Shown here: positions 53,124 through 60,379 of the stretch, one piece after another | How the letters are laid out: every line of letters begins with the position of its first letter | How positions within the stretch are numbered: the first letter of the stretch is position 1 | Source of the DNA: Halanaerobium saccharolyticum | GTDB taxonomy: Bacteria; Bacillota; Halanaerobiia; Halanaerobiales; Halanaerobiaceae | NCBI RefSeq assembly: GCF_003259895.1 | Contig: NZ_QLME01000013.1 | Location: forward strand, 16,348 to 80,347 | Direction: 5' to 3' | Length of the DNA stretch: 64,000 nt | Position numbers and translations under genes: made by a program | Notes under the pieces: generated by a model | The model's input: the letters and a program-made list of their open reading frames with translations, nothing else | Told to the model about the DNA's origin: nothing | Databases searched by the model: none

Positions 53124-55373
53124 ATGGTAACATTAGTTATTTCGAATATAGATAATAGTATTGGTCCTGGTGATATTGTAGGTGCTTTTATTAATGAGGC
53201 CGGAACAGCAAGTGATGATATTGGTAAAATTAATATAGATAAAAGAAATAATAAAGCTGAAGTAGAAGTAAACTGGGATTCTGCTTCCCAAATCATAAAA
53301 GCTATGGATAATAATCAGATTGGGGGAGTTAAGGTTCAGGTCAGCGCTAAAAATCAGGATGATTTAATTGATAAAGAAATTATAAATTATTATAATAAAT
53401 TTCATAAATTAGTTGATTTAGAAAGAGAAGAAGAAATAGATAGACATAAACTGGAAATAAAATATTTATCAGCTAGAGAAAGACAGGCAAAAGGTAGAAC
53501 ATTATTAGATCTACATGGAAAGGATAATGGAACCACTTTCGGCCACCGCCCTCTGGTGAAATTAACTTCTAAATATCAAGGAGAAAGGCTGGCTGAGACT
53601 CAAATCACTCCTGGAGATTTAGTAATGATCAGTCTAAATAAGCCTTTACATCCGGATAACCCTACCGGCACAGTGGTAGAAAAAACATCTTATTCGATTA
53701 CGGTGGCTTTTGAGAGTCACCCACCTGAATTTATTTATAATAAAGGAGTAAGGCTTGATTTGTTTGTTAATGATACAACTTTCCAGAGAATGTTTACTGC
53801 TCTGGAAAAAATAAAACATCCCGAAAACGAGCTGCAGGAAAGAAAAAGAGATATCCTGCTGGATAGGAAAATGCCGACATTTGCTGCTAGAGAAGAATTG
53901 GAACTTGAGTTTCTCAACCAGTCGCAGAAAGATGCTGTAGAAAATGCACTGGCTGCAGAAGACATCTATTTAATTCAGGGACCTCCTGGAACTGGTAAAA
54001 CTGTAACAGCAGTGGAACTGATAGCAAAAGCTGTCGAACAGGGAGCTAAGGTTCTGGCAGCAGCAGATTCGAATACAGCAGTTGATAATTTGTTGGAGCT
54101 GCTGGCGGAAAAAGATCTTAATGTAATTAGAATTGGACATCCAATCCGGGTTACTAAAAAGTTAAGAGAACACACTTTAGATGAGGTAGTTTTAGAGCAC
54201 CAGGATTATTTAGAAGCAGAAAAATTAAGAGATGAAGTTTCTGATTTAATTAATAAACAGGAATCCTATATTTATCCCGGTGGAAAATACAGAAGAGGTT
54301 TATCGGATCAGGAAATTAAAAATTATGCCGAAAAAGATTTAGAACATCATGTTAGAGGTATCAGCCCTGAGGTTATTGATGAAATGGCAAGCTGGTTGGA
54401 GCTTCAGGAAAAAATAGACAGGTATTTTAAAGAAATAGAACGGCTTGAAAATAAAGCCGTAGAAGAACTGCTGGACGAAGCTGATGTTATTTGTACTACT
54501 AATATTACAGCCGGCTCTGAGCTGTTAGAAAACAGAGAATTTGATTTAAGTGTAATAGATGAGGCTACTCAGGCGACACAACCAGCAGCTTTAATCCCTT
54601 ATCTAAAAGCAAAAAAATCAATTTTAATCGGCGATCATAAACAGCTGCCTCCGACTGTAGTCAACCAGGAAGCAGCGGAAAAAGGTTTAAGTGTCTCTTT
54701 ATTTGAAAAATTAATCGAAAACTATCAGAAGCAGCTCAGTTCCCTGCTGGAAATTCAGTATAGAATGAATAGAGAAATTATGGGTTTTTCCAGTATTTAT
54801 TTTTACAATAACAGCCTTAAAGCAGCCGCTTCTGTAGCAGAACAAAAAATAGGTGATCTGGGAGTTAAAACAACGGGTGAAGATTGTTTTACAGATAAAT
54901 CATTAAAGTCAGGGTATCCTCTGGTCTTTTTAGATACCAGAGAAATGAAGTCAGCTGAAAGATCGTTTGAAGGCTCAAATTCTTATGATAATCCTGTGGA
55001 ATCAGAAATTGTACTTGATATCCTTGATCGAGCTCTTAAATCCTCTCTCTCAGAGGATGATATTGCTGTAATAGCTGCTTATAAAGATCAGGTTGATTTA
55101 ATAAATCAGCACAATAAATTTAAAAATGTTGAAATTGATACAGTTGACGCTTTTCAGGGAAGGGAAAAAGAAATGATTATTTTTTCTGCTGTTCGCAGCA
55201 ATCAGGAAAATAATATTGGTTTTTTAAGAGATTTACGACGCCTTAATGTTGCTTTAACCAGAGCTAAAAGAAAAATGATTTTTATTGGTGACAGCAGCAC
55301 AATCTGTGAGCATGATGCATATAATAAACTGCTTAAATATATCAAAAAAAGTGGGCTTTATTATAAACTATAG
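53124..55373 (+). CDS. UPF1/IGHMBP2-type SF1 helicase with N-terminal DbpA-like RNA-binding domain
   Basis: A 749-residue protein from ATG 53124 behind GGAGGTG; the frame is open further upstream but only inside dcd. Residues 1-75 resemble the RRM-like DbpA domain of DEAD-box proteins (IGPGDIVGAFINEAG, then IGKINID). A beta-barrel 1B region follows. Helicase motifs: GPPGTGKT 286-293, DEAT near 479-482, GDHKQLPP, QYRMNREI, DAFQGREKE and RLNVALTRAK. RNA or RNA-DNA unwinding is inferred; the biological target is unknown. Confidence 0.9.
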   Translation: MVTLVISNIDNSIGPGDIVGAFINEAGTASDDIGKINIDKRNNKAEVEVNWDSASQIIKAMDNNQIGGVKVQVSAKNQDDLIDKEIINYYNKFHKLVDLEREEEIDRHKLEIKYLSARERQAKGRTLLDLHGKDNGTTFGHRPLVKLTSKYQGERLAETQITPGDLVMISLNKPLHPDNPTGTVVEKTSYSITVAFESHPPEFIYNKGVRLDLFVNDTTFQRMFTALEKIKHPENELQERKRDILLDRKMPTFAAREELELEFLNQSQKDAVENALAAEDIYLIQGPPGTGKTVTAVELIAKAVEQGAKVLAAADSNTAVDNLLELLAEKDLNVIRIGHPIRVTKKLREHTLDEVVLEHQDYLEAEKLRDEVSDLINKQESYIYPGGKYRRGLSDQEIKNYAEKDLEHHVRGISPEVIDEMASWLELQEKIDRYFKEIERLENKAVEELLDEADVICTTNITAGSELLENREFDLSVIDEATQATQPAALIPYLKAKKSILIGDHKQLPPTVVNQEAAEKGLSVSLFEKLIENYQKQLSSLLEIQYRMNREIMGFSSIYFYNNSLKAAASVAEQKIGDLGVKTTGEDCFTDKSLKSGYPLVFLDTREMKSAERSFEGSNSYDNPVESEIVLDILDRALKSSLSEDDIAVIAAYKDQVDLINQHNKFKNVEIDTVDAFQGREKEMIIFSAVRSNQENNIGFLRDLRRLNVALTRAKRKMIFIGDSSTICEHDAYNKLLKYIKKSGLYYKL

Positions 55374-55490: not shown

Positions 55491-55519
55491 TTGACACTAT
55501 TTAAAATTTAAGATATAAT
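55491..55519 (+). promoter_or_regulatory. Perfect-consensus promoter for the 48-residue antitoxin-like gene
   Basis: TTGACA (55491-55496), 17-base spacer, TATAAT (55514-55519): full match at both boxes with ideal spacing. It is among the strongest promoters in the window. Confidence 0.92.
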
Positions 55520-55569
55520 TAGATTGACTAAAGGTGTTTTGAAATCATTTTAGAATGAGGTGGTTAATA

Positions 55570-55716
55570 GTGGAGAGGCTGCGCCGTAAGAAAAACTTTA
55601 GTAAAAGTGAAAAAGAAGAGATTGCCAGAGCAATGGTTAAGGGCTATGAAAAATTGGCTGCAGTAAATGAAGATCTTATTCGAAATGTTTCTCTACTTAA
55701 GGATGGGGCTAATTAG
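55570..55716 (+). CDS. 48-residue protein resembling the toxin-binding C-terminus of MazE/EndoAI antitoxin
   Basis: Starts at GTG 55570, six bases after GAGGTGG. It is too short to hold a DNA-binding domain. The stretch EKEEIARAMVKGYEKLAAVN (about 14-33) aligns with [20 protein letters not shown] of the full antitoxin next door, keeping the Glu pair, Gly-Tyr and Asn positions. A basic N-terminus (RLRRKK) replaces the ribbon-helix-helix. Own promoter and terminator. I infer a free toxin-binding module; it has not been described to my knowledge. Confidence 0.75.
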   Translation: MERLRRKKNFSKSEKEEIARAMVKGYEKLAAVNEDLIRNVSLLKDGAN

Positions 55717-55729
55717 TCTCATCTTTTTT
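55702..55729 (+). terminator. Terminator of the 48-residue gene
   Basis: GATGGGGC (55702-55709), loop TAATTA, GTCTCATC (55716-55723) with two G-T pairs, then six T. The stem overlaps the last codons of the gene. Confidence 0.8.
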
Positions 55730-55759
55730 CTTCATTTTTCGAAAATCTAGCTGTCATAA

Positions 55760-55787
55760 TTGATTATTATCAATTAAATGATATAAT
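55760..55787 (+). promoter_or_regulatory. Promoter for mazE-mazF
   Basis: TTGATT (55760-55765), 16-base spacer, TATAAT (55782-55787), just after the preceding terminator. Confidence 0.65.
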
Positions 55788-55820: not shown

Positions 55821-56117
55821 TTGTCAGAAAGCAGAAAATTAAAGATTGAACTTCCAGTATATGTTGTGGAAGAAATTGAACATTATTGTAAAAATAATAA
55901 TCAGAAGCGAAATGCATTTCTCAATCAGGCAGTTAAGTATTATTTAAAAGAATTGAAAAAAGAAGAGGTTCGAAATCATCTTCGCGATGGTTATAAAAAA
56001 ATGGCCGGTCTTAATCAACAATTAGCTGATGAGGGTTTATCAAGTGAGTGTCATTCATACTTATGCTATGAACAAAGACTGGTGGAGTGTGAAAAAATTG
56101 AAAGTAAAAAGGGGTGA
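55821..56117 (+). CDS. mazE: MazE/EndoAI-type antitoxin
   Basis: Antitoxin that binds and blocks the neighbouring toxin and represses its own operon. It is 98 residues from TTG 55821, eight bases after GGAGG. The N-terminal half ([18 protein letters not shown] ... [13 protein letters not shown]) is a ribbon-helix-helix; the C-terminal half carries [20 protein letters not shown], the toxin-binding part. It is followed by a cysteine-containing tail. Its end overlaps mazF by 20 bases. Confidence 0.9.
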
Positions 56118-56448
56118 CGTTTTTTACGCTAATTTAAATCCAGTTGTAGGTTCTGAGCAGGGCGGAGTTAGACCAGTCTTAATTATCCAGAATGATATTG
56201 GGAATAAGTACAGTCCTACTGTAATTGTAGCTGCGATTACTTCTCGAATTAACAAAGCTAAGCTGCCAACTCATGTTGAGATTCCAGCTGACTACAACAA
56301 TTTGGATAAAGATTCTGTTATATTATTAGAACAGATCAGAACTTTAGATAAGAAGAGATTACAGCGCCACATAGCCCATCTTGGTGAAGATGTAATCGAA
56401 GATGTTAATCAATCACTGGAAATAAGTCTTGGCTTAATAGATTTATAA
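56098..56448 (+). CDS. mazF: MazF/EndoA-type mRNA interferase toxin
   Basis: A sequence-specific endoribonuclease that cuts mRNA to slow growth. I place the start at TTG 56098, ten bases after GGTGGAG, giving 116 residues, the length of Bacillus EndoA. Upstream in-frame ATG 56068 and GTG 56089 are other options. Motifs: [29 protein letters not shown], and LPTHVEI and [13 protein letters not shown], very close to EndoA. Catalytic Arg and Thr (TSRI) are present. Confidence 0.93.
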
Positions 56449-56472: not shown

Positions 56473-56501
56473 TTGACAGTGTGAAAAAAATATCATATAC
56501 T
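56473..56501 (+). promoter_or_regulatory. Promoter for the hydrogenase locus
   Basis: TTGACA (56473-56478), 17-base spacer, TATACT (56496-56501). About 115 bases of leader precede the first gene. Confidence 0.85.
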
Positions 56502-56621: not shown

Positions 56622-56996
56622 ATGAATCTAAAAACTGTCAAATCTCTTCTTAATACTGAAACTATCTTTGAGGGTACTGAAGAAAAGGATGATTTCGAGG
56701 TAAAAAACGCCTGTGGTGCTGATTTAATGAGTGATGTACTGGCCTTTTCGAATGAAAAGACACTTTTGCTGACCGGTTTGACTAATCCTCAGGTAGTACG
56801 TACCGCCGAAATGGTTGGGATTAAGGTTATTATATTTGTCAGAGGAAAAGAACCACAGATAGAAACAATTTCTTTAGCCAATCAGCTGAATATTTTTCTT
56901 TATTCCACAGACAAGCCGTTATTTGAGGCCTGTGGTCTTTTGTATAAAAATGGGATTGGACCGGAAGAGATGAATTATATAGAAGCCTCCAAATAA
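56622..56996 (+). CDS. DRTGG-domain protein, first copy
   Basis: A 124-residue protein resembling the DRTGG domain (about residues 25-110: FEVKNACGADLMSDVLAF, then LLLTGLTNPQVVRTAEM). DRTGG domains are found in sensors and regulators and are thought to bind ligands; the exact role is unknown. ATG 56622 follows GGAGG. It heads a gene cluster with hydrogenase subunits, as in other anaerobic Firmicutes. Confidence 0.75.
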   Translation: MNLKTVKSLLNTETIFEGTEEKDDFEVKNACGADLMSDVLAFSNEKTLLLTGLTNPQVVRTAEMVGIKVIIFVRGKEPQIETISLANQLNIFLYSTDKPLFEACGLLYKNGIGPEEMNYIEASK

Positions 56997-57013
56997 TTTA
57001 TCAGGAGTTGATT

Positions 57014-57457
57014 TTGTCTTTGCAAAAACAACAAATATTGAATAAAGAAATTGAAAGTTTTGATTTTCAGAGCGGGGGAGAAGCTTCAAGTAATTTAAAA
57101 AATATCCTGCGCAAACTGGGAGTTCCATCTCAAACTGTTCGCAAAACAGCAATTATTACCTATGAATTAGAAATGAATGTGGTAATTCATTCTCTGGGAG
57201 GAGAACTGACAGCTTTAATTTCCGAAGAAGAGCTGGAGATCAGGGTTGATGACAGTGGCCCGGGAATAGAAGATCTTGATAAAGCTTTTACAGCTGGTTA
57301 TTCTACTGCAAGTGATGAAATCCGGGAAATGGGTTTTGGAGCTGGCATGGGACTTGTTAATGTCAAACGTTATGCAGACCAGATTGATGTAAAATCATCT
57401 AAGGAAAATGGAACACATGTGAAAGTAATAATTAATTTAACTGATAGTACTAATTAA
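57014..57457 (+). CDS. SpoIIAB/RsbW-like ATPase, first copy
   Basis: A 147-residue GHKL-type ATPase from TTG 57014, six bases after CAGGAG. ATP-binding boxes: N box YELEMNVVIHS (near residue 55), G1 DDSGPGI (near 80) and G2 GFGAGMGL (near 111). No histidine-kinase dimer domain is present, so it looks like an anti-sigma-factor-type serine kinase or stand-alone ATPase. Target unknown. Confidence 0.85.
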   Translation: MSLQKQQILNKEIESFDFQSGGEASSNLKNILRKLGVPSQTVRKTAIITYELEMNVVIHSLGGELTALISEEELEIRVDDSGPGIEDLDKAFTAGYSTASDEIREMGFGAGMGLVNVKRYADQIDVKSSKENGTHVKVIINLTDSTN

Positions 57458-57476
57458 TCGCTGCAGGAGGTTAATG

Positions 57477-58814
57477 ATGACCAAAAAGCACTCTGTGCTC
57501 TTAAAAGAAGAAAAGTGTGAGGGATGTACAAACTGTGTGAAGGGGTGTCCTACAAAAGCAATCCGGGTCCATCAGGGAAAAGCCTGGATCAAAGAGGATC
57601 TCTGTATTGACTGTGCAGAATGTATTAGAGCCTGTGAATACCATGCTAAATATACTAAAACAGATCAACTTACCAAAATAGAAAAGTCTGAATATCCAAT
57701 TTTATTAATTCCACCCAGTTTTTACAGCCAATTTTCTGCAAAAATTTCTGCACAAAAAATTAAAAAAGCCATTAAAAATTTAGGCTTTGAGGAAGTTTTT
57801 GATGTAGCAGATGCAGCGGCCGCTTTATCCCGTAAAACACTTGATTTTTTAAATAATAATTCTGGAACTTATATCTCTACTTCCTGTCCAGTAATTGTTA
57901 GATTGATTAAACTTCAATTTCCTGATCTAATTGAGATGTTAATTCCTCTTAAATCACCGGTGGAGCTAATTGCCGAAAGAATTGAAAGAAAATTAAAAGA
58001 AGAAAAAAATATTGATCCAGATATTTTCTTTTTAACTCCCTGTCCCGCAAAACTAACCACTGTCAAAAGAGCAATCGGACAGAAAACAAGTTTTTTAAGT
58101 GGTGCCATTGGGGTAGAGAGTATCTATCAAAAAATATATGAATCACTGGAAGATATCGAACTGGAGAAAGAAGAAAATAATCAATTGATGACTCTGGCGA
58201 CCATCTGGGGAAGTGAAGGTGGAGAAGAAAGTATTTTGAAATCCTGGGAGAATATAAACACTTTAAGTGTTTCTGGAATTACGGAAGTAAAAAAGCTGCT
58301 GGATGAAATAGAGAGAAATAATATTCCAGAAGCAATTAGGTATTTTGAACTCACCTCCTGTGCTAATGGTTGTATTGGAGGGGTTTTAAATGTTATTAAT
58401 CCTTTTCAATCACAGTTTAACTTAGAAGAAAGGATTAAAAATATTAGGGAAATCATGCAAAAACATAATATTGACTTAAAGAAAAAAGATGATGAATTTT
58501 ATAATTTTGCCCTTTCTGAAAAAATTACTGCAGATAATGTATCAAAACTGGATAATGATTTCAAAAAGGCAATGCAGAAGTTGGAACAGCTGCAGAAAGA
58601 AATAGAGATTTTACCTGGATTAGATTGTGCAGCCTGTGGTGCACCAGACTGTAAGACTTTTGCCGAAGATGTAATTAACGGACGTGCCAGTAGAACTGAT
58701 TGTATATTTATGCTTAGAGAACAGCTTGGCAGACTGGCAGATGATCTTTCAATTCTGGCAAATGAGTTACCGCCAGTTATGGCATCTAAAAAGGAGGAAG
58801 CAGATGACAGTTAA
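57477..58814 (+). CDS. [FeFe]-hydrogenase-like iron-sulfur protein, divergent (sensory type)
   Basis: A 445-residue protein. Two 4Fe-4S motifs (CEGCTNCVKGCP, CIDCAECIRAC) lie at about residues 14-55. H-cluster-like motifs diverge from the catalytic type: TSCP near 135, TPCPAK near 187, and TSCANGCIGG near 292. A C-terminal FeS domain (LDCAACGAPDCKTF near 383) follows. This layout matches group D-like hydrogenase homologues thought to sense rather than make H2. It overlaps the next gene by 11 bases. ATG 57477 is chosen over 57474 for spacing. Confidence 0.8.
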   Translation: MTKKHSVLLKEEKCEGCTNCVKGCPTKAIRVHQGKAWIKEDLCIDCAECIRACEYHAKYTKTDQLTKIEKSEYPILLIPPSFYSQFSAKISAQKIKKAIKNLGFEEVFDVADAAAALSRKTLDFLNNNSGTYISTSCPVIVRLIKLQFPDLIEMLIPLKSPVELIAERIERKLKEEKNIDPDIFFLTPCPAKLTTVKRAIGQKTSFLSGAIGVESIYQKIYESLEDIELEKEENNQLMTLATIWGSEGGEESILKSWENINTLSVSGITEVKKLLDEIERNNIPEAIRYFELTSCANGCIGGVLNVINPFQSQFNLEERIKNIREIMQKHNIDLKKKDDEFYNFALSEKITADNVSKLDNDFKKAMQKLEQLQKEIEILPGLDCAACGAPDCKTFAEDVINGRASRTDCIFMLREQLGRLADDLSILANELPPVMASKKEEADDS

Positions 58815-59133
58815 AGAACTTGTAGATCAATTTGATTTAGAAGTAGTTGCTGGCCCGAATTTAGACAGAGAAGTTGATGGAGCTTATATAGGTGATCTTT
58901 TGAGTAATGTAATGGCCAGGGCTGAACAGGGAAATCTCTGGTTGACAGTTCAGGGACATCAAAATGTGGTAGCTGTAGCTTTATTAGTAGAGTTGGCCGC
59001 TGTGATCCTGGTAGAAGACTTTGATTATGAAGAAAATGCAGTTCAGAGAGCCTGTCAAAAAGGAGTTAATCTATTAAAAACCAGAAAAAAAAGTTATGCT
59101 TTAGCCTGTAACTTTTGTGAAAGTAAAATTTAA
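58804..59133 (+). CDS. DRTGG-domain protein, second copy
   Basis: A 109-residue protein with the DRTGG pattern across most of its length (REVDGAYIGDLLSNVMAR near 22-39, LWLTVQGHQNVVAVALL). It starts at ATG 58804 behind GGAGG and overlaps the [FeFe]-hydrogenase-like gene by 11 bases, so the two are probably made together. The reading frame is open further upstream, but only inside the previous gene. Confidence 0.75.
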   Translation: MTVKELVDQFDLEVVAGPNLDREVDGAYIGDLLSNVMARAEQGNLWLTVQGHQNVVAVALLVELAAVILVEDFDYEENAVQRACQKGVNLLKTRKKSYALACNFCESKI

Positions 59134-59868
59134 ATGCTGAAATTAAAAGCTGATCTTCATCTACATTCTGTATTGTCTCCCTGTGGTGATCTATTGATGA
59201 CTCCAGAAGAGATAGTAAAAAAAGCAAAAAAAGAGGGGATTGAAGTTTTAGCTCTGACAGATCATAATTCTGCAGAAAATGTAGAAGTTTTCGGGTTTTT
59301 TTGTGAAAAGCATAATTTGAAATATATTCCGGCAATGGAGACTGAAACAAAAGAAGAAATTCACATTTTATGTTATTTCCCAGACCTCAAAAGTCTTCTA
59401 AAATGGCAGAAAATAGTTTATGACAGACTGCCTGAACAGAAAAATGATGAGGATTTTTTTGGGCCTCAAATTAAATGTAATTTTAATGATGATTATCAAT
59501 CTAAAATACAGTACTTACTTGCCGGGGCAGTTGATTTGAGTTTAGAACAGTGTCTTGCCAGGGTTAGAAAATTGGGTGGGGTAGCAGTACCCTCACACCT
59601 GGATAGAAAACACAGTATTATATCTCAGCTGGGATTTATACCACCGGAACTAAACTTAATTACAGCTGAAATATCCAAAAATACTGAGCCAAAAATTTTA
59701 CACGAAAAATTTTCTTATTTAAATAAACTGCAGTTTATGCAGAATTCTGACAGTCACTATCTTAAAGAAATAAAAGCCTATCAGAGTCTGATAGTTGAAG
59801 AATTTTCTTTTGCAGAATTTAAAAAAGCTGTTCAAAAAGAAGAAGGAAGAAAGATTGACTTAATTTAA
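59134..59868 (+). CDS. PHP-domain phosphoesterase
   Basis: A 244-residue PHP-fold protein, metal motifs DLHLHS (near 7-12), LTDHN (near 40-44), SHLDRK (near 155) and NSDSH (near 208). The family hydrolyses phosphate esters; the substrate here is unknown. The start codon directly follows the stop of the preceding gene. Its link to hydrogenase genes is conserved in related bacteria but unexplained. Confidence 0.85.
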   Translation: MLKLKADLHLHSVLSPCGDLLMTPEEIVKKAKKEGIEVLALTDHNSAENVEVFGFFCEKHNLKYIPAMETETKEEIHILCYFPDLKSLLKWQKIVYDRLPEQKNDEDFFGPQIKCNFNDDYQSKIQYLLAGAVDLSLEQCLARVRKLGGVAVPSHLDRKHSIISQLGFIPPELNLITAEISKNTEPKILHEKFSYLNKLQFMQNSDSHYLKEIKAYQSLIVEEFSFAEFKKAVQKEEGRKIDLI

Positions 59869-59896
59869 ACTTAATTTATCAAGGAGGTAATTATTG

Positions 59897-60379
59897 ATGG
59901 CAGAGATGACAGAAGAAAAATTAGCAGAGTTTTTAGAGCCATTAAAAGAAATTTTATCACGTTATGAAAAAAAGGAAAGATACTTAATCCCGGTTTTACA
60001 GGAAGCTCAGGAAGAATATGGATATTTACCGGAAGAGGTTATGAAAGAGATAGCTTTAGGCTTGAATCTTTCTTTAAGTCAGGTATATGGAGTTGTAACA
60101 TTTTACAGTCAGTTCCATCAGCAGCCAAGAGGTAATAATATTGTTCGAGTCTGTATGGGTACTGCCTGTCATGTTCGAGGTGGAGAAGGTATTTTAAATG
60201 CTATTAAAGATGAGCTGGGGATTGAAGCAGGAGAAACTACTGATGATTTAGAGTTTACACTTGAATCTGTAGCCTGTATTGGTGCCTGTGGTCTGGCTCC
60301 AGTTATTATGGTCAATGATGACACACATGGTCGTTTAACTCCCGAAAAAGTTCCTGAGATTATGGCAAAGTATAAATAA
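59897..60379 (+). CDS. NADH-dependent hydrogenase subunit, NuoE-like 2Fe-2S protein
   Basis: A 160-residue 2Fe-2S thioredoxin-like protein (HydC/HndA/NuoE type). The four cluster cysteines lie in CMGTAC (near 87 and 92) and CIGACG (near 128 and 132). ATG 59897 follows AAGGAGG. It heads the catalytic part of the cluster; electrons move from NADH through this complex to HydA. Confidence 0.93.
   Translation: MAEMTEEKLAEFLEPLKEILSRYEKKERYLIPVLQEAQEEYGYLPEEVMKEIALGLNLSLSQVYGVVTFYSQFHQQPRGNNIVRVCMGTACHVRGGEGILNAIKDELGIEAGETTDDLEFTLESVACIGACGLAPVIMVNDDTHGRLTPEKVPEIMAKYK

Follow-up and report, generated by a model that had tools for sequence, protein, structure and literature searches.

A free-standing MazE-tail gene conserved beside mazEF in the Halanaerobiia, probably encoding a second MazF antitoxin

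Inhibitors of the toxin MazF that lack a ribbon-helix-helix (RHH) domain are already known, namely AimX and the MazE of Staphylococcus aureus. AimX, encoded by the Bacillus arbitrium phages phi3T and SPbeta under the control of AimR/AimP and used against the host, is a free-standing MazE tail of about 51 residues with an M-x3-Y-x2-M helix, in which M14, Y18, E20, and M21 make the same contacts with MazF as MazE does; it binds MazF roughly five times more tightly than MazE and displaces MazE (PMC10769878). AimX and MazE also both bind the phage protein phi3T_93 through that same helix, and YosL, a phage-borne protein of 100-130 residues from phi3T/SPbeta, is a second MazF-binding mimic of MazE beside the existing one (PMC10769878). 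The MazE of S. aureus (NCBIfam NF041459) is short, has no RHH, and is the sole antitoxin, in one operon with mazF. The site at which MazF is perturbed by a 34-residue peptide of this protein (residues 23-56) is the one expected for binding, and the system is reported to be tied to sigB and not to be autoregulated (PMC4041440). The MazE of Bacillus subtilis, EndoAI (YdcD), joins a DNA-binding N-terminal domain to the C-terminal MazF-binding helix and carries an additional C-terminal segment.

The window analyzed here, a 64,000-nucleotide stretch of the Halanaerobium saccharolyticum genome, encodes a 48-residue protein between a helicase-like gene and the pair mazE-mazF (Table 1). The protein shares with AimX and the S. 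aureus MazE the absence of an RHH, with AimX a helix of the M-x3-Y-x2-M type, with YosL the proposed status of a second MazF-binding MazE mimic, and with EndoAI a helix homologous to the one that binds MazF. Unlike AimX, however, its gene is chromosomal, host-owned, provided with a promoter of its own, and situated beside mazEF across the class; unlike the S. aureus MazE, the protein is an addition to an RHH-type MazE. It differs from EndoAI in lacking both the DNA-binding domain and the additional C-terminal segment, and the true counterpart of EndoAI is the adjacent mazE, which, contrary to the arrangement of RHH-type antitoxin genes directly upstream of mazF and co-transcribed with it, separates the small gene from the toxin gene. 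We propose, with a probability of about two in three, that the small gene encodes a second antitoxin and that inhibition of MazF is its main function, a reading drawn from sequence comparison. A first-pass annotation of this DNA had remarked that such two-tier control had not been seen described. The open papers that we searched, a part of the literature, describe neither a complete mazEF accompanied by an additional, host-encoded MazE tail nor any toxin-antitoxin system from Halanaerobium. The remark holds within those papers for the host-encoded arrangement, but AimX and the S. aureus MazE are precedents for the type of protein.

Table 1. Features of the small gene and the adjoining mazEF pair, in window coordinates.
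Feature	Position	Strand	Basis and remarks
Small-gene promoter, sigma-70-type, TTGACA-17-TATAAT	55491..55519	+	Consensus, 12/12
Small-gene Shine-Dalgarno sequence, GAGGTGG	55557..55563	+	From sequence; 6 nt to GTG
Gene of stand-alone MazE-tail protein, 48 aa, GTG start	55570..55716	+	Frame, orthologues, MazE/AimX homology
Intrinsic terminator over last codons and stop of small ORF	55699..55732	+	Stem 55699-55726, 3' arm AGTCTCATC, then T-rich run
Inverted repeat TAATTGA-TTATTA-TCAATTA over mazEF -35	55757..55776	+	Shuffle P 0.06
Probable mazEF promoter, TTGATT-16-TATAAT, TG before -10	55760..55787	+	10/12; variable among relatives
mazE, full-length antitoxin with N-terminal RHH	55821..56117	+	EndoAI 4me7_E, E 1.4e-16 (alignment led by window mazE); own genome, E 1.2e-40; start may be GTG 55806
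mazF/EndoA toxin, PemK family	56044..56448	+	PF02452, E 1.6e-37; true start within 56044-56107

The frame, its ribosome binding site, and the consensus promoter that had been annotated were all confirmed. The helicase-like gene upstream, assigned by visual inspection of its P-loop motifs, ends at position 55373. In 37 of 45 loci the corresponding site ahead of the small gene carries a promoter that matches at least 11 of the 12 consensus positions, while shuffled sequences reach this score at a frequency of 0-0.015 per locus, and a GAGGTG-type Shine-Dalgarno sequence precedes the ORF in most orthologues. Inverted repeats that might serve as operators over this promoter were in general not above shuffled sequences. 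These signals suggest that the gene is expressed.

Relatedness to the tail of MazE is very likely (a confidence of about nineteen in twenty would not overstate it), and the comparison is clearly better than random. By BLASTP, the window protein is identical to the adjacent MazE at 9 of 22 positions (E 9e-5), and profile-profile alignment (hhalign) of the small proteins with the neighboring MazEs gave a probability of 97% and an E-value of 4.4e-11 over 35 columns. When a profile built from the small proteins only, and containing no MazE, was compared with all PDB sequences, the first match was AimX (8anv_C, E 5.2e-5) and the second B. subtilis EndoAI (4me7_E, E 0.019), with the next at 0.34. 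The S. aureus MazE model NF041459 (54 positions) matches 11 of 19 small proteins at E-values down to 4.9e-10, the window protein not being among them and no small-protein score being shown near the curated cut-off of 108 bits. Across the phylum, the small-protein profiles retrieve mainly full-length MazE frames. The window protein alone, in contrast, had no match in Pfam, NCBIfam, or PADLOC, had only weak matches in PHROGs, to families of unknown function, and was recovered by a MazE profile from its own genome at no better than E 0.09; the case therefore rests on the orthologues. A tblastn search of phage records returned one match at chance level (E 6).

The absence of an RHH, noted in the initial annotation, was borne out: the small proteins are 47-62 residues long, and their similarity to MazE begins past the RHH region. 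The shared pattern that had been read as EE...GYxK reflects real homology, but IxxxMxxGYxKMAxxN describes it more generally. In an alignment of 43 distinct small proteins, variation is lowest at G25, Y26, N33, M22, M29, K15, I18, and K28, and Gly25-Tyr26 is invariant in all 43. The MazF-contacting residues M14, Y18, E20, and M21 of AimX align with positions 22, 26, 28, and 29. All four belong to this set of eight out of 48 columns, for which the chance with four given columns is about 4e-4. Position 22 is Met or Leu, 26 is Tyr, and 29 is Met (Leu in the window protein), whereas position 28 is mostly Lys or Gln where AimX has Glu20, a match of position and not of residue. The helix face that inserts into the MazF groove would be formed by the Gly-Tyr pair, which is invariant, and the Met positions. 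AlphaFold2 predicts the 48-mer as a single helix over residues 12-46 (pLDDT of about 93 over residues 11-30), which is compatible with the bound form of MazE, although it is no proof of it.

The proteins also differ from MazE. They lack its C-terminal segment YE..LAECE; in Halanaerobium the half past GYxKMA diverges from MazE; and in one genus (family f4 genus g6, loci L025-L027 and L030) IAREMIEGYKK is kept while the MazE-like segment that follows is lost. MazF binding is predicted with least assurance in that genus, where the part past GYKK is unlike MazE. This loss, the basic N-terminus of many small proteins, and the precedent of phi3T_93 (PMC10769878), which indicates that the helix can be reused, could each be accommodated if the protein no longer inhibits MazF and instead acts on MazE or another partner, for example as a competitor for the protease adaptor involved in MazE degradation or as an anti-antitoxin. 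We consider this unlikely, given that conservation falls on the residues entering the MazF groove, that linkage to mazEF is strict, and that the presumptive target is single-copy, the mazF of the window being the only PemK/MazF gene found in the genome.

The initial annotation had suggested looking for the same gene beside mazEF in relatives, and it does occur there. Profile searches and inspection of loci placed it in 45 of 59 class genomes. Of these, 30 come from the 38 genomes of the order to which Halanaerobium belongs, while families f8, f9, and f11 contribute 15. A search of 61 relatives with the single protein found the gene, as a frame of its own of about 50 residues, in every one of the 12 genus members searched, where position and start codon are conserved as well, and in most of the order; in genome contigs the single protein identified five Halanaerobium loci, the closest named ones from H. 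saccharolyticum, H. kushneri, and H. congolense. Wherever flanking sequence is available, the arrangement is helicase, small gene, mazE, mazF, the helicase being unrecognized in some loci within the 1.5 kb that was fetched, and no copy away from mazEF was found within the class genomes. That the frame, place, and start codon are conserved across genus, order, and class indicates that the ORF does not arise by chance, and the existence and conservation of the gene can be regarded as very likely.

Thirteen class genomes, most of them with mazF, lack the small gene, which is therefore dispensable. It is missing from families f10 and f6 and from one genus of f4, and in f10 mazEF follows alr, as it does in Bacillus; in one class genome the contig begins inside mazE, so that the presence of the gene is not decidable there. 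Beyond the class, 199 and 398 phylum genomes were searched with profiles, and the matches listed lie in frames of at least 84 residues, as expected for full-length MazE, except in two genomes of family f34. There, a 49-residue RHH-free ORF with a MazE tail (..MIDGYKQMAAINLQIAEEF..) follows alr (L093, 1421-1570, minus strand; L094, 1444-1593, plus strand), no mazF-like ORF is evident beside it, and it appears to be an independent orphan MazE tail. The small gene is a lineage-specific companion of mazEF and not a phylum-wide part of it.

The small gene is under purifying selection. Variable columns among the 12 genus members number 25, 17, and 39 at codon positions 1, 2, and 3, and substitutions are mostly synonymous, with a mean pN/pS of 0.35. 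Two clean pairs of loci had ratios of at most 0.1 (L001/L003, pS 0.357 and pN 0.035; L011/L012, pS 0.287 and pN 0.009). A gene that is short and retains only the tail of MazE might be taken for the decaying fragment of a duplicated mazE, but place, promoter, Shine-Dalgarno sequence, start, and frame are kept in 45 genomes of several families and pN/pS is well below 1. This conservation refutes the pseudogene reading, to which we give next to no credence.

The terminator noted in the initial annotation is present, but it is not a separate downstream element, as its stem takes in the end of the ORF, from the final codons through the stop. The GATGRGRC/GTCTCATC stem is retained across most of the order, whereas the hairpin of the sister families, GAGACG/CGTCTC, lies mostly 3' of the stop, clear of the small ORF, and the f4 genomes keep the ORF and lack the terminator. 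Terminators usually drift. The GUCUC 3' arm is nevertheless retained class-wide (as GATGAGAC/GTCTCATC within one order and as GAGACG/CGTCTC among the sister families), as seen in the window and in L016-L024, L028, L029, L060-L071, and L078-L080, and hairpins of this kind are rare in these genomes. A candidate pairing of the 3' arm with the Shine-Dalgarno sequence of the small ORF was dropped, because the sister families do not preserve it and any purine run resembling a Shine-Dalgarno sequence pairs with such a tail.

The conserved and otherwise rare 3' arm, together with the shortness of the transcription unit, would suit a small regulatory RNA in which the ORF is incidental, an alternative that the first-pass annotation had raised. 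In its pure form this is disfavored by purifying selection at the codon level, and protein conservation is family-wide despite large divergence of the DNA. Rfam searches of a 600-base locus returned only sub-threshold chance matches, with no family above threshold, and we regard a purely RNA function as highly improbable.

A leader-peptide attenuator, in which ribosomes on the ORF would set passage through the terminator into mazEF and the peptide sequence would matter little, is suggested by the terminator, which across most of the order covers the final codons together with the stop, and by loci that have no good mazEF promoter (L011/L012, L002, and L010). Yet Firmicutes commonly have terminators that overlap stop codons, the sister-family hairpin is mostly clear of the ORF, the f4 genomes keep the ORF in the absence of a terminator, many loci have a mazEF promoter, and class-wide conservation of the MazE helix at the protein level would be left unexplained. 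Attenuation is thus quite unlikely to account for the gene.

Promoters ahead of mazEF vary. Some pairs have a 12/12 promoter of their own (e.g., L013, L014, L019, L020, L028, L029, L078, and L079), L002 and L010 have only poor candidates before mazE, and in L011/L012 the gap between the small gene and mazE is 25-32 nt. In L025, L026, L030, and L017, mazE begins 5-39 nt past the small gene with no terminator between them. Given the short gap or the want of a clear mazEF promoter, the promoter of the small gene probably also feeds mazEF in several relatives. The inverted repeat over the mazEF -35 is not kept throughout the genus and is at best a weak candidate for a MazE operator. In the window, mazE and mazF overlap at 56044-56117, and the MazE of Halanaerobium has a C-terminal extension, KIESKKG, past the ..AECE end of other genera that runs over the mazF start. 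Downstream of mazF a TTGACA-17-TATACT promoter (56473-56501) precedes genes (56622-60379) whose products, judged by eye from the translations, look DRTGG-type, anti-sigma/ATPase-like, iron-sulfur hydrogenase-like, and NuoE-like.

Under the second-antitoxin reading, a paralogue of MazE would have lost, or never had, the RHH, leaving a basic N-terminus and the helix for the MazF groove. Its near-consensus promoter would drive a short message ending mostly at the terminator on its own stop codon, and the 48-mer helix, by homology, would enter the groove of the MazF dimer and block the toxin. Because it has no DNA-binding domain, the 48-mer should not itself repress, and it may buffer toxin that escapes MazE. 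Its own strong promoter and the terminator would set the output of small protein relative to mazEF. In those lineages where mazEF has no promoter of its own, its transcripts probably come from polymerase that reads through the terminator, and the small antitoxin would therefore be made in excess.

The earlier suggestion that a constant supply of the small protein would buffer the toxin without repressing the operon is supported as regards the gene's own strong promoter and the absence of an RHH, but is weakened by the several relatives in which the gene probably shares its promoter with mazEF. Moreover, an antitoxin that draws MazF off MazE could change mazEF autoregulation; since withdrawal of MazF can alter the repressor complex, acting without repressing the operon is not the same as acting without affecting it.

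In models of type II toxin-antitoxin control, neutralization of the toxin and repression of the operon are assigned to a single protein. More tentatively than for MazF inhibition itself, and with the odds somewhat against it, we suggest that the Halanaerobiia may have a three-component MazEF in which, alongside the autoregulating MazE, a dedicated antitoxin that is expressed separately and does not bind DNA maintains a minimum level of MazF inhibition and decouples neutralization from repression, as an endogenous counterpart of AimX. If so, the small antitoxin could also blunt phage or stress triggers that act through MazE. A natural, class-wide split between neutralizing and repressing, with both forms beside one toxin, would make such buffering testable by removal of the gene. 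As a host-side relative of the phage protein AimX, the small gene is also relevant to a possible origin of such peptides in host genes.
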